From positions 1 to 36,116 of the forward strand of contig CAISPT010000363.1 of NCBI GenBank assembly GCA_903887455.1: a stretch of 36,116 bases of DNA, given 5' to 3'. This DNA is from an uncultured Opitutaceae bacterium (lineage in GTDB: Bacteria; Verrucomicrobiota; Verrucomicrobiia; Opitutales; Opitutaceae). Position 1 is the first letter of the stretch, and each line of letters opens with the position of its first letter. The position numbers and the translations under genes were made by a program. This document shows, in pieces, positions 24,117 to 29,353 of this stretch. The notes under the pieces were generated by a model, which was given only the letters and a program-made list of their open reading frames with translations, had not been told where the DNA came from and ran no database searches.

Positions 24117-25601
24117 ATGAGCACCGAAGGATCGCCCACCCCTCCCACGTTTGCAAATGGCACACAGCTATTTGTGCGTGTCGTGGCCTTGGCTCACCTT
24201 TTTGCGTTCAGCTCATTCTGGGTGCAGGCGTCTGGCCTAATAGGCCCCCACGGCGTGCTGCCGGCGGGGCAATTTTTCAGCATGGCATACAAGGAGCTGG
24301 GGCTGAGGGCATTCTACGAGGCACCGTCGCTCTGCTGGCTCTTCGGCTCCGCGCATTTCCTGGATCTGCTTTGCGCTGCGGGGGTAGCCTTCTCCCTCCT
24401 GCTCCTGGCCGGCTATATGCAGGCCGTCAGCCTGGCCGCCCTCTGGATATGCTACCTCTCCCTTTGCTCGGCGGGCCAGATCTTCATGGATTTCCAGTGG
24501 GATTCCCTCCTCCTCGAAAGCACCCTGATCGCCATCTTTCTTGTCCCGTGGCGCGCCGGCCGCGGGCACCTTGGGTACGAGCCGCCGAAGCTCGCCCGCT
24601 ATCTTTCCTGGTGGCTCCTTTTCCGACTCATGTTCCTGTCGGGGGCGGTCAAGCTTACTAGCGGCGACCCGACCTGGAGGAGCCTGACGGCGCTCTCGTT
24701 CCACTACCAGACCCAGCCGCTTCCCACGCCCCTCGCCTGGTATGCGAACCTACTGCCCCTCTGGTTCCAGAAGGCCTCCTGCGCGGCAATGTTCGCCGTG
24801 GAGCTGGGTGCCCCCTTTCTGCTCCTCGCACCGCGCCGCGCCCGGCACGCGGCGGCACTTTCTCTTATCGCGCTACAGCTTCTCATAGCGCTCACCGGCA
24901 ACTACGCCTTCTTCAACCTACTTACGATAGGGCTCTGCCTCACCTGCCTTGACGACGACTGGTGGAGACGGCTGCACTGGGGCGTCGAGGCCGTTCGAGA
25001 AGGCGAGCGGGGCGTGCCGCGCAGGGGCGTACGCGCCACCGCCACGCGCTGGTTTGCCGCGTTCTCGGTCGGCATAACCTTCTTCGAGACGGCGGCCGCG
25101 CTGTCGGGCACGGCCGCCCGGTCTCCGATCGTGCGCACGGTGGCCGAGGCGGTGGGCCCGTTCAGGAGCTTCAACGATTACGGTCTCTTTGCTGTGATGA
25201 CCGTCGAGCGGCCGGAGCTCGTGATTGAGGGCAGCGACGACGGGACCGACTGGAGGGAGTACTCACTGCCCTACAAGCCCGGGGAGCTCGCGCGGCGCCC
25301 ACCGTGGGTCGCTCCGCACCAACCGCGGCTTGACTGGCAGCTGTGGTTCGCGGCGCTTGGACCCTCCGACAGCAACCCCTGGGTCGGTACGCTCTGCGAG
25401 AAGCTGCTTCGCGGCGAAGGGGATGTCGCGAGTCTCTTCGCCCGCAATCCGTTCCCCGACCACCCGCCCCTTTACATGCGTGCGGTGCGCTACAGGTACG
25501 AGTTCACTTCGCCCGCCGAAAGGACTCGAACTGGAAATTGGTGGCGTCGGACCCCCATTGATTTTTACATTCCCCCTGTGAGCCTCAAGAAAGAGCAATG
25601 A
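24117..25601 (+). CDS. LMF1-family (lipase maturation factor-like) membrane protein
   Basis: This 494-residue multi-pass membrane protein matches the lipase maturation factor family. Diagnostic segments are FQWDSLLLESTLIAIFLVPW, RLMFLSGAVKLTSGDPTWRS, the LSFHYQTQPLPTPLAWY block, NYAFFNLLTI, and a C-terminal soluble part with FNDYGLFAVMTVERPELVIEGSDDG and PHQPRLDWQLWFAALG. About six to eight hydrophobic helices lie in residues 15-290. In animals LMF1 is an ER protein needed to fold dimeric lipases; bacterial members are uncharacterised as far as I know. It leads a trio: the next methyltransferase overlaps its stop by ATGA. No lipase gene is nearby. Confidence 0.9.
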   Translation: MSTEGSPTPPTFANGTQLFVRVVALAHLFAFSSFWVQASGLIGPHGVLPAGQFFSMAYKELGLRAFYEAPSLCWLFGSAHFLDLLCAAGVAFSLLLLAGYMQAVSLAALWICYLSLCSAGQIFMDFQWDSLLLESTLIAIFLVPWRAGRGHLGYEPPKLARYLSWWLLFRLMFLSGAVKLTSGDPTWRSLTALSFHYQTQPLPTPLAWYANLLPLWFQKASCAAMFAVELGAPFLLLAPRRARHAAALSLIALQLLIALTGNYAFFNLLTIGLCLTCLDDDWWRRLHWGVEAVREGERGVPRRGVRATATRWFAAFSVGITFFETAAALSGTAARSPIVRTVAEAVGPFRSFNDYGLFAVMTVERPELVIEGSDDGTDWREYSLPYKPGELARRPPWVAPHQPRLDWQLWFAALGPSDSNPWVGTLCEKLLRGEGDVASLFARNPFPDHPPLYMRAVRYRYEFTSPAERTRTGNWWRRTPIDFYIPPVSLKKEQ

Positions 25602-26764
25602 AGCCGGCCGGACCGGACAAGTTCATGGAGCTTCTGCGCGAGGCCGTAGCCACCGGCTCGCTCGTGAAGCTGACGCTGGGTAAGCCCGACGGGCGGGATC
25701 CGACGCTGAGGAACCTCTTTGTCCGTCCTGTCCAGCTCAAGTCGGGCCCCCGGCTTGCCTTCGTCTGGCGGTACGCGACACGCGACGTGACGAAGAACCA
25801 CGAGTCGGCCGAGGCAATCCGCGTCATCGAGCCGCTGGTGGGCAGCGATTTCCAGGATGCCCACCTGTTCACCACGACGGGCAGCGCCCAGCTTGAGACG
25901 GGCGGCCGGGCGCCTCGTCTTCGGGTAACCGGGGGTGCTCGCGCCGGCGCGGGCCCCGCCGCAAACGACCGGGTCAAGAGCAGGCCGATCGAACCCGGGT
26001 CGGCGTGGCTGAGGTCGCTCGGGATCACCGACCAGGCGGGAAGGCCAATGACCGCGATGGCCGACAAATACCGGCAGATCCAGAAATTCGGGGAAATCCT
26101 CGGCCACCTGATCGGCCAGGCGCCCCTTCCCCATGACAGGAAGCTGCACCTCTACGACATGGGTTGCGGCAAGGGCTACCTCACCTTTGCCGCTAGCGAG
26201 CTCCTCGGAGGCCGCGCGCTGGTCCGCGGCGTGGAGGCCAGGCCGGACCTTGTCGATTTCTGCAACAAGGTTGCGGCCGAGCAGGGCATTTCGGACCGTC
26301 TCGGCTTCTGCGTGGGCACGATTGCCGAGACTGAGGCCGGGGACGCCGACATCCTCGTTGCCCTCCACGCCTGCGACACGGCGACGGACGACGCGCTCGC
26401 CAAGGGAGTTTCCGCAGGCGCCGCCCTTCTGGTGGTCGCCCCGTGCTGCCAGAAGGAGGTGCGGCCGCAGATCCTCCCGCCGCCCGTCCTAAACTCGGCC
26501 CTCAGGCACGGCATCTTTGTCGAGAGGCAGGCCGAGTTCGTCACCGACGCCCTGCGCGCCCAGCTGCTTGAATGGGCGGGCTACTCGGTGAAGGTGATGG
26601 AGTTCATCTCGACGGAGCACACGGCGAAGAACACGATGATAACCGCGGTGCGGAACGGGAGCCGGGGAGATGAGGCGGTGGCCCGCTCCATACGGGATCT
26701 CGCGGCATTCTACGGCGTCAGGCGACACACCCTCGCACGCCATCTCGGGTTCGATCTTCAATGA
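25598..26764 (+). CDS. SAM-dependent methyltransferase, PF13679-like
   Basis: This 388-residue protein has an N-terminal ~155-residue domain of unknown type, with LVKLTLGKPDG and KNHESAEAI, and a Rossmann methyltransferase domain: motif I YDMGCGKGYLTFA (186-198), an acidic E213 in GVEARPDLVDF, then LVALHACDTATD (253-264) and VVAPCCQKE (279-287). The HACxTATD and APCCQ motifs are typical of the Methyltransf_32/METTL25-like group. The N-terminal half may bind nucleic acid, but I cannot show this. It overlaps both neighbours by four bases, so all three proteins of the run should be made together. Being next to an Rsm22-like protein and near rimO, an RNA substrate is a reasonable guess. Confidence 0.85.
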   Translation: MKPAGPDKFMELLREAVATGSLVKLTLGKPDGRDPTLRNLFVRPVQLKSGPRLAFVWRYATRDVTKNHESAEAIRVIEPLVGSDFQDAHLFTTTGSAQLETGGRAPRLRVTGGARAGAGPAANDRVKSRPIEPGSAWLRSLGITDQAGRPMTAMADKYRQIQKFGEILGHLIGQAPLPHDRKLHLYDMGCGKGYLTFAASELLGGRALVRGVEARPDLVDFCNKVAAEQGISDRLGFCVGTIAETEAGDADILVALHACDTATDDALAKGVSAGAALLVVAPCCQKEVRPQILPPPVLNSALRHGIFVERQAEFVTDALRAQLLEWAGYSVKVMEFISTEHTAKNTMITAVRNGSRGDEAVARSIRDLAAFYGVRRHTLARHLGFDLQ

Positions 26765-27753
26765 CTTGGGAGGAAATTGACTGGGCCAGCCTTGGCCGGC
26801 TGCGCGAAAGGTTCCTTGAGGGGGCCCCGGGTACGGGACCCTACTGGGAAACGAGGGGCGACCTGGCGAGCTACGACTTCACGTACGGTGAGCGCATTGG
26901 CTGGAAGTGGGACGCCGTCCTTGAAGAGCTCCAGACGAGGGGATGGACCCCTTCTGACGGGGTCGTGCTGGACTGGGGCTGCGGAAGCGGCATCGCGGGC
27001 AGGCGCGTGGTCTCAAGGTTTGGTCGCGGCAAGATCACCGGCCTGGCGGTGTGGGACCACTCGGAGCTCGCCCGCGCCTTCGCCGCAGAGACGGCCTCCC
27101 GGGAATTCCCGGGGCTCGCTGTTTCCGACGGGGCGGGTCTCATTTCGGAAGAGACTCCAATCGGGCTTCTTGTGGTCAGCCACGTCCTAAATGAGCTCGC
27201 ACCCGCGGACCTCGAGGAGCTCGCCCGCCTGGCGGCGAGGTCGAGTGCGGTTCTCTGGACGGAGCCCGGCTCCAGGGAGGTCAGCAGGGCGCTGGGGGCG
27301 ATCCGCGACAAGTGGAGCCAAAGCTTCGGCGTCGTGGCGCCGTGCACGCACGCCCTGCCCTGCCCGGTGCTAGCGCCGGGAGACGAGCGCCACTGGTGCC
27401 ATCATTTCGCGCCCCCTCCGCCGCTCATATTCGCCGATCCAAACTGGGTGAGGTTCGGCCAGAGAGCCGGGATTGACCTCCGGAGCCTGCCCTACTCCTT
27501 CATCGCGCTAGACCGGAGATGGTCCGGCGGAGAACCCGGCCTGTCGCGCGTGATAGGCAGGCCCGAACACTTCAAACCCTACGTCCGCCTGCTCAACTGC
27601 GACCCGAGCGGGCTTCACCAGCTGACGGCAATGAAACGGGGCAACCCCTCGCTGTACAAGGAACTGGAGAAGACGAAGCGCCCCCTTGTGTACCGGTGGT
27701 CGCGCCAAGGGGATACCATCACTTCCGGCGAGGCTTTCCGCCCTAGGTCTTGA
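26761..27753 (+). CDS. Rsm22-like protein with four candidate Fe-S cysteines
   Basis: This 330-residue protein has a methyltransferase fold with motif I DWGCGSG (71-77), VSHVLNEL (139-146) and TEPGS (167-171), followed by APCTHALPC and HWCHHF. That Cys pattern, C195-x5-C201, C213 and a later C280, is the arrangement seen in Rsm22/METTL17, where four cysteines hold a 4Fe-4S cluster. Mitochondrial Rsm22/METTL17 binds the small ribosomal subunit and is needed for its assembly; bacterial homologues are poorly known. It is coupled by ATGA to the methyltransferase before it. A ribosome assembly role is inferred from homology and from rimO downstream. Confidence 0.87.
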   Translation: MTWEEIDWASLGRLRERFLEGAPGTGPYWETRGDLASYDFTYGERIGWKWDAVLEELQTRGWTPSDGVVLDWGCGSGIAGRRVVSRFGRGKITGLAVWDHSELARAFAAETASREFPGLAVSDGAGLISEETPIGLLVVSHVLNELAPADLEELARLAARSSAVLWTEPGSREVSRALGAIRDKWSQSFGVVAPCTHALPCPVLAPGDERHWCHHFAPPPPLIFADPNWVRFGQRAGIDLRSLPYSFIALDRRWSGGEPGLSRVIGRPEHFKPYVRLLNCDPSGLHQLTAMKRGNPSLYKELEKTKRPLVYRWSRQGDTITSGEAFRPRS

Positions 27754-27778
27754 CTCACCGTCAAAGATTGGGTCTCAT
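27750..27778 (+). promoter_or_regulatory. Candidate sigma-70 promoter
   Basis: TTGACT (27750-27755), a 17-base spacer and TCTCAT (27773-27778; four of six matches to TATAAT). The -35 box overlaps the stop codon of the Rsm22-like gene. A start about 7 bases downstream would give a leader of some 20 bases ahead of the microprotein. It would separate the microprotein and rimO from the upstream trio. Confidence 0.4.
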
Positions 27779-27803
27779 CAGCCTTTACCCACATCACAAC
27801 ACC

Positions 27804-27899
27804 ATGGGACAGCAGCTAAATAAGATCATTAAACGCAAACGCCGCGCCGCTTACCTGAAGCGCAAGAAGGCGGCGGCCACTGCCGCGAAGAAGAAGTAG
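27804..27899 (+). CDS. 31-residue Lys/Arg-rich microprotein
   Basis: ATG to TAG encodes 31 residues: MGQQLNKIIKRKRRAAYLKR followed by KKAAATAAKKK. Fifteen residues are Lys or Arg and none is acidic, which gives a very high charge. The peptide would form one basic helix with an Ala-rich tail, like the smallest ribosomal proteins. No Shine-Dalgarno sequence is visible, though a plausible promoter lies upstream, and the space between the Rsm22-like gene and rimO is otherwise unexplained. I recall no named family with this sequence. It lies 41 bases before rimO and could be a ribosome-bound or RNA-binding peptide; that is inference. The reading frame alone is weak evidence, but its composition and position make it a likely gene. 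Confidence 0.62.
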   Translation: MGQQLNKIIKRKRRAAYLKRKKAAATAAKKK

Positions 27900-27940: not shown

Positions 27941-29353
27941 ATGATCAAGGTCAGCCTGATTTCACTCGGCTGTGCTAAGAACCTTGTAGACAGCGAGATA
28001 ATGGTTGGGCACCTGCACAAGGCAGGCATGCAGGTCACCCCCGACGCCGAGGCGGCGGATGTGGTGATCGTCAACACGTGCTCCTTCATAGACTCGTCGA
28101 AGGAGGAGTCTATCGGGCACATCCTTGAGGTCCACGCCCAGCGTGGCCTTCGCAAGAGGCGCAAGGAGCAGAAGCTGATCGTGGCCGGCTGCATGTCGCA
28201 GCGCTTCTCCAAGGACCTTCCCGGCTCGATCCCCGAGGTGGATGCCTTCATCGGGCTCGACCAGGTGACGCAAGTGGCACCGATTATCGAGGAGATCTAC
28301 GCAAAGGAGCGGGCCAAGGGGGATTTGCCCGCAAGCTTTGTCACCACGCGCTCGACCTACATCCCCGACTACGACACGCCGCGGTTCCGGCTGACTCCAG
28401 CGCACCTCGCCTATGTCAAGATAGCCGAGGGCTGCAACCACCCCTGCACCTTCTGCATCATCCCTCAGATCCGCGGCCGCCACCGAAGCCGCACTGTCCA
28501 GAGCGTAGTCGCCGAGGTCCGCCAGCTGGTCGCCGAAGGTGTCAAGGAGGTCAACCTGATCTCCCAGGATACGACCTTCTTCGGAATGGACACCTGGGAC
28601 GAGCGCCCGAATCCGAGGACGCCCGTCGATTCCACGCGGGGCACCGCGCTCACGTCACTGCTTCGCGAGCTCAACGCCATCGAGGGCGACTTCTGGATCC
28701 GGATCCTCTACACTCACCCCGCCCACTGGAGCGACGAGCTGATCAGGACAATCGCCGAGTGCCCGAAGGTCGCCCGTTACGTGGATATGCCCCTGCAGCA
28801 CATCAGCGACCGGATGCTCAAGGTCATGCAGAGGGAGACCTCCGGCGATTACATCCGTGGTTTGGTGAAGCGCATCAGGGCCGGCATTCCCGGGATCGCG
28901 CTGAGGACTACCTTCATTGTCGGCTTCCCTGGCGAGACTGCCGAAGACGTCGACGAGCTCTGCCAGTTCGTGCGCGAGGCCCGCTTTGAGAGGCTGGGCG
29001 TATTCCGGTATTCCCAGGAGGAGGGAACGCGCGCGGCCAAGATGGAGGACCAGGTGTCGCCCAAGGAGAAGGAGCGCCGCTGGCACCAGGTGATGGCCCT
29101 CCAGAAGGAAATCGCGGCGTCCGTCAGCGCCGAAAGCGTCGGCAAGACCCTCAGGGTTCTGGTCGACGAGGCTGGCGTCGCCCGGGGCGAGGCCGACGCT
29201 CCGGACATCGACGGAAGGGTCTACATCCCGAAGGAGCTGAAGGTGGGTTCGTTCGCCTCCGTGACGATAAACGGGCACCACGACTACGACCTCCTCGCCC
29301 TTCCCGAGGGCGAGAGTCCGGCCTCGTACAAGGTGGCCCGCCAGGCCCAGTAG
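27941..29353 (+). CDS. rimO: Ribosomal protein S12 methylthiotransferase
   Basis: This 470-residue radical SAM enzyme methylthiolates a conserved aspartate of ribosomal protein S12. The N-terminal MTTase domain has cluster cysteines C11 (SLGCAKNLVDSE), C47 (VNTCSFI) and C84 (VAGCMSQR). The radical SAM cluster is EGCNHPCTFCIIPQIRGRHR (C155, C159, C162). DMPLQHISDRML and a C-terminal TRAM domain (from ~405, TLRVLVDEAG) complete the pattern. CAKNLVDSE and FCIIPQIRG favour RimO over MiaB. It is downstream of the basic microprotein and of two methyltransferase-fold proteins, forming an RNA/ribosome-modification group. Its stop lies three bases from the convergent mpl stop. Confidence 0.96.
   Translation: MIKVSLISLGCAKNLVDSEIMVGHLHKAGMQVTPDAEAADVVIVNTCSFIDSSKEESIGHILEVHAQRGLRKRRKEQKLIVAGCMSQRFSKDLPGSIPEVDAFIGLDQVTQVAPIIEEIYAKERAKGDLPASFVTTRSTYIPDYDTPRFRLTPAHLAYVKIAEGCNHPCTFCIIPQIRGRHRSRTVQSVVAEVRQLVAEGVKEVNLISQDTTFFGMDTWDERPNPRTPVDSTRGTALTSLLRELNAIEGDFWIRILYTHPAHWSDELIRTIAECPKVARYVDMPLQHISDRMLKVMQRETSGDYIRGLVKRIRAGIPGIALRTTFIVGFPGETAEDVDELCQFVREARFERLGVFRYSQEEGTRAAKMEDQVSPKEKERRWHQVMALQKEIAASVSAESVGKTLRVLVDEAGVARGEADAPDIDGRVYIPKELKVGSFASVTINGHHDYDLLALPEGESPASYKVARQAQ

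Follow-up and report, generated by a model that had tools for sequence, protein, structure and literature searches.

A conserved gene for a basic microprotein upstream of rimO

The window analyzed here is a 36,116-nucleotide stretch of DNA from an uncultured Opitutaceae bacterium (Verrucomicrobiota; assembly GCA_903887455.1, contig CAISPT010000363.1, positions 1 to 36,116), and our subject is a microprotein gene on its forward strand, located at 27804-27899 between an Rsm22-like methyltransferase gene and rimO, the gene for the S12 methylthiotransferase. As a preliminary description of the sequence had stated, the frame lies between these two neighbors, which were matched to PF09243 and TIGR01125, respectively; it runs from ATG to TAG over 31 codons and is translated as MGQQLNKIIKRKRRAAYLKRKKAAATAAKKK. 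A composition count bore out the reported absence of acidic residues but gave nine lysines and four arginines, or 13 of 31 residues (42%), instead of the 15 (48%) claimed. The window contains 173 frames of 25-60 codons that start with ATG, and no other one combines at least 40% Lys/Arg with a lack of Asp and Glu; the chance expectation for such frames is 0.04 per window (200 simulated windows of matched dinucleotide make-up). Although gene finders usually overlook microproteins of 31 residues, this frame is a genuine gene, and the decisive evidence is its conservation.

In a search of 19 relatives, the microprotein was identified in every one of the 13 genus members, the own genome among them, and in one of six relatives from other families of the order. 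Related genomes lacking the frame, or carrying stops or frameshifts in it, had been named as the outcome that would speak against a gene; instead, the frame is intact in 13/13 genus members and the family reaches far beyond the genus. In one of these loci (L008, also L089; genome G007) the frame reads on near the contig end for about 65 residues into an unrelated stretch, with no rimO downstream, which is probably an assembly join. Within the genus, nucleotide identity is 81% across the first 22 codons versus 31-52% upstream, and the ratio of nonsynonymous to synonymous change (pN/pS), a comparison proposed in the preliminary description, is 0.21 in the coding frame versus 1.35 and 1.13 for the two remaining sense frames. 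A similar value of 0.19 (bootstrap over codons, 0.09-0.38) was obtained from 36 distinct Opitutaceae sequences, a set that was found by peptide pattern and is therefore biased downwards, the genus set being less so; here, too, the alternative sense frames gave values above 1. Thus, the microprotein is under purifying selection, with a pN/pS of about 0.2.

Table 1. Features at the microprotein locus (positions in the window).
Feature	Position	Strand	Remarks
Rsm22-family methyltransferase-like gene	26761..27753	+	PF09243, 6e-13; upstream neighbor in part of Opitutaceae
-35-like TTGACT	27750..27755	+	Overlaps the stop codon of the Rsm22-like gene
-10-like TCTCAT	27773..27778	+	Less conserved; putative function
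Short C/A-rich leader	27779..27803	+	No obvious Shine-Dalgarno sequence, by eye
Microprotein gene	27804..27899	+	31 residues plus TAG; core codons 1-22 (27804-27869), variable tail codons 23-31
rimO (S12 methylthiotransferase)	27941..29353	+	TIGR01125, 1.5e-144; adjoins the microprotein gene in Opitutaceae-type loci only

Distribution across the Verrucomicrobiota and the conserved core

A peptide-pattern scan of an 84,980-species collection returned 150 relatives of the microprotein, of which 79 loci were examined. All but one of these (78/79) carry Verrucomicrobiota names (Opitutaceae, Verrucomicrobiaceae/Prosthecobacter, Akkermansiaceae, Limisphaerales/Pedosphaera, Lentisphaeria and Chthoniobacter), the remaining one being named 'uncultured bacterium'. 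When 387 Verrucomicrobiota genomes were searched, a 10-row profile matched 211 at an expectation value (E) of at most 0.1, and a profile of 39 diverse rows (A2) matched 299 at the same threshold and 267 at E<=1e-3, counts that include the genomes supplying 26 of the 39 rows, which match by construction. A reversed-profile control matched 5 of 145 genomes at E<=0.1 and 0 of 145 at E<=1e-3. The gene is present in one copy in nearly every genome matched by the 39-row profile. A phage origin was rejected, since 75 pattern matches in viral contigs included no relative of the microprotein and no PHROG family was matched.

The conserved core comprises the first 22 residues or so, MG[QK]QxNKxxKRxRRxAYLxRxK, in which M1, Q4 and R13 are invariant in 39/39 rows and K7, K10, R14, Y17 and R20 are nearly so. 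Across these 39 diverse members the Lys/Arg share of the first 31 positions is 32-48%. Beyond the core the family varies widely in length: members from Opitutaceae, most Limisphaerales and Lentisphaeria are short (31 to about 40 residues), and those from Verrucomicrobiaceae, Akkermansiaceae and some others are long (65-195 residues), with a K/A/P-rich tail that then becomes acidic. Tails in the long-tailed set (L065-L116) turn strongly acidic, and that of L109 contains tandem PEIET-like repeats. AlphaFold2, applied to 20 unchanged sequences, returned a single helix spanning residues 3-30 with a mean predicted local distance difference test (pLDDT) score of 89, and the microprotein is accordingly modeled as one alpha-helix.

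Expression signals

The promoter-like arrangement noted previously (TTGACT, 17 bases, TCTCAT) is present at 27750-27778 and is the sole exact match to TTGACT-N17-TCTSAT in the 3.34-Mb genome. TTGACT precedes the ATG by 47-62 nucleotides at 12 of the 13 genus loci and at 31/31 further Opitutaceae-type loci (43/44 together), and it is kept even where the upstream gene differs; the -10-like hexamer (TCTGAT or TCTCAT) is found in only 8 of the 13 genus loci. Judging from this pattern, the microprotein gene of Opitutaceae has its own conserved, putative promoter-like element. Inspection by eye indicated that the leaders of the gene in Opitutaceae are C/A-rich and lack an obvious Shine-Dalgarno sequence, as do most Verrucomicrobiae, whereas several Lentisphaeria-type loci (among L123-L162) have GGAG-like motifs before the gene, hinting at a lineage difference in its translation initiation.

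Neighboring genes

In the genus, rimO is the next gene in 12 of 13 loci, L008 being at a contig end, and starts within about 45 nucleotides of the microprotein stop or slightly overlaps it; at L010 it was recognized by eye, the search pattern having missed it. Among the 79 loci, rimO lies downstream in 36, each of them Opitutaceae-type; contig ends truncate a further two, and in 41 no RimO was found in the stretch examined. Other translation genes appear elsewhere in the family. The next gene is rpsP (S16) in six Prosthecobacter-like loci (one Pfam-confirmed), followed by a KhpA-type frame (one checked), and a YacP/Rae1-like NYN gene in six loci of one BLAST cluster (Pfam-confirmed in three). 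Upstream of the microprotein stands leuS in two loci, L157 (with Pfam support) and L158, and an S4/PseudoU_synth_2 gene in L120. The link to translation genes is therefore recurrent but not exclusive, and the neighbors vary by clade.

Two methyltransferase-like genes stand in tandem ahead of the microprotein gene in the window (25598-27753), Methyltransf_32 followed by the Rsm22 family member; the name of the latter family refers to a mitochondrial small-subunit protein, and the member here lies near rimO. In several relatives from the family or order (G014, G016, G057, G126, G134, G149, G176, G190, G225, G228, G241, G307 and G363) rimO has apparently been lost, and the best match in these 13 genomes is a paralogue of 31-34% identity, probably of MiaB/MtaB type. 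A diverged copy upstream of rimO was considered for G015, G322 and G354 but rejected, since scanning these loci for short basic frames turned up none resembling the family.

Comparison with known small ribosomal proteins

Three known small proteins share features with the microprotein. The bS22/AURKAIP1-COX24 family (mS38; PF08213, NF047430) is the closest in character, being about 30 residues long, extremely basic and helical, starting with MG, often unannotated and found in the same genomes. Likewise, bTHX (PF17070) is about 27 residues long and basic with an MG start, and bS21 (PF01165) is a small basic 30S protein. To separate these families we used 38 genomes, 30 with the microprotein family and eight chosen for showing no match. 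A separate bS21 gene is present in 36/38, including the own genome (G000:C11:1155-1295); bS22/COX24 is above its cutoff in 19/38 and seen at E<=1 in 36/38; and Thx is above cutoff in 0/38. The bS22/COX24-type protein of the own genome (33 residues; L196, G000:C160 from 9101) scores 17.3 bits against an NCBIfam cutoff of 34, and is therefore probably unannotated as well. Because the same genome encodes both elsewhere, the microprotein is neither bS21 nor bS22.

Profile comparisons agree with this distinction. The microprotein has no Pfam family match at E<=10, and hence none to PF17070 or PF01165, and no match to PF08213 or NF047430; its conserved core matched no Pfam, NCBIfam or PHROG family. 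A bS22 profile built from seven verrucomicrobial sequences served as a positive control and recovered bS22 and mS38 chains in PDB (7jil_5, 4.6e-5), as the microprotein profile did not, and hhalign assigned a probability of 0.3% to a relationship between the microprotein family and bS22. The sole PDB match to the microprotein profile, leucine carboxyl methyltransferase 2 (E 2.4), was treated as chance. The earlier view that the sequence does not match Thx or bS22 therefore holds.

A candidate accessory ribosomal protein

We consider it fairly probable that the microprotein is a previously uncharacterized, lineage-specific accessory ribosomal protein that is widespread in Verrucomicrobiota. A lineage-specific ribosomal protein fits because the product is small, strongly basic and conserved at the protein level, begins with MG, and is encoded by a single-copy gene with a promoter-like element and recurrent translation neighbors. 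The likeness to tiny ribosomal proteins proposed in the preliminary description is thus sustained in composition, length, MG start, copy number and translation neighbors, but the Lys/Arg count behind it was overstated, and rRNA binding and residence on the ribosome are what we infer from these features. The proximity of rimO (S12), rpsP (S16) and the Rsm22-like gene suggests the small subunit as its place. There is precedent for small ribosomal proteins escaping annotation: in a cryo-electron microscopy study of the Borrelia ribosome (PMC10618245), bS22, which is tiny and basic (61% Lys/Arg), and bL38 had gone without annotation until their density was observed.

If the microprotein is a ribosomal protein, its chain would fold as one alpha-helix upon binding and pack into rRNA, with G2, Q4, K7, K10, R11, R13, R14, Y17 and R20 contacting the RNA, the short MG start buried and the C-terminal tail free to shrink or grow. 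In the known case of bTHX, the protein occupies an rRNA pocket within the head of the 30S subunit. We suggest more tentatively, as an idea somewhat short of likely, that the microprotein is an undescribed component of most Verrucomicrobiota ribosomes, that it perhaps occupies a pocket which in other phyla is empty or taken by a different small protein, and that its free C-terminal tail has grown in some families into a long extension, basic at first and acidic after that; the pocket idea is set beside the observation that these verrucomicrobial genomes have no recognizable Thx.

Several observations weigh against a ribosomal role. The long tails of Verrucomicrobiaceae and Akkermansiaceae members resemble histone H1-like proteins. 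The A2 profile found no ribosomal chain in PDB at E<=10, so that the family has no recognizable homologue in solved ribosomes. Of the sampled order-mates outside Opitutaceae, 10/26 have the microprotein at E<=1e-3 and 16/26 do not; it can thus be lost and, with some of the phylum lacking it, is not generally essential. Neighbors without a role in translation also occur (YgbB/IspF, LpxA-like, PALP/CysK-like and OGG_N), which makes the gene context suggestive only. Finally, conservation follows a helical period only weakly (p 0.035), and AlphaFold is prone to call short basic peptides helical.

Alternative explanations

The main rival is that the family comprises small nucleoid or general nucleic-acid-binding proteins of the histone H1-like kind, the short forms representing a minimal DNA-binding core. 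The K/A/P-rich repeats of the long forms share their composition with such proteins and match NF038053 (3.2e-5, under the cutoff) and PF07382, the HC2 family (E 0.011), weakly. These matches are confined to the variable tail, from residue 20 onward, which Opitutaceae, Limisphaerales and Lentisphaeria lack; among the H1-like models no match over a cutoff included the conserved core, the only ones being the sub-threshold tail matches in long members. In addition, the 22-residue core is specific, with Q4, K7, K10, R13, R14, Y17 and R20 fixed or nearly so, unlike histone tails that are alike in composition only, and translation-gene neighbors recur. A histone-like function, backed solely by the variable tails, is therefore unlikely.

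Less likely still is a cofactor of ribosome assembly, hibernation or modification that would bind the ribosome transiently, for example one acting with RimO on S12. Besides the adjacency to rimO in Opitutaceae-type loci not cut by a contig end, the presence of the two genes is associated: the RimO model TIGR01125 is above cutoff in 298/387 genomes, and among 386 genomes (microprotein at E<=1e-3) 227 have both, 40 the microprotein only, 70 RimO only and 49 neither. This table was compiled from hand-typed lists covering 386 of the 387 genomes, with 297 strong RimO matches versus the 298 over the cutoff, and the association ignores shared ancestry. In the order outside Opitutaceae, 13/26 genomes lack both. 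However, the microprotein persists in 8/37 Opitutaceae genomes that have no RimO, and is therefore no mere RimO partner; three order-mates have RimO without the microprotein, and beyond Opitutaceae the two genes are not neighbors in the stretches examined. Strict partnership was rejected, since each is found without the other.

The nearest prior art is the PVC (Planctomycetes, Verrucomicrobia and Chlamydiae) signature protein of the CT421.2 family, also reported for Lentisphaerae, and literature searches that included the core motif strings, with RefSeq annotation outside their range, returned no description of the microprotein family itself. Like the microprotein, the signature protein is small, phylogenetically restricted and without known function, and it is itself reported to bind nucleic acid. 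CT421.2 is described as a PVC-wide protein of unknown function with a 53-residue conserved region (Gupta 2012, PMC3444138) and, in a 2020 paper (PMC7203096) that cites Lagkouvardos 2014, as an RNA-binding protein whose fold resembles that of L30. That region is described as conserved in all members, which exceed 80 residues in Planctomycetes, whereas in Opitutaceae the microprotein is full-length with 31 residues; the L30-like fold differs from the single helix predicted here, and the signature protein also occurs in Chlamydiae and Planctomycetes. Since length and fold differ, the two are probably distinct, as compared by published description, and identity is improbable.

Lastly, a frame that is spurious, or that encodes a leader peptide regulating rimO, would likewise be short and directly upstream of rimO in Opitutaceae, but this can be dismissed with near certainty, as conservation acts at the amino acid level (pN/pS about 0.2), other families carry the microprotein away from rimO, the interval from its stop to rimO gave no folding signal in 5/5 loci tested, and Rfam had no match in the window, so that a leader or attenuator was rejected.

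Implications

Tiny lineage-specific ribosomal proteins such as bS22, bL37, bL38 and Thx are readily missed by annotation and often noticed only once a ribosome structure has been solved. The present family is predicted from sequence ahead of any verrucomicrobial ribosome structure in the copy of PDB that was searched. The prediction is a sharp one: a verrucomicrobial ribosome should contain an unassigned basic helix starting G-[QK]-Q-x-N-K. If this is true, the microprotein would be an extra ribosomal protein for a phylum often encountered in soil, lake and gut environments, and an example of a small ribosomal protein acquiring long tails.
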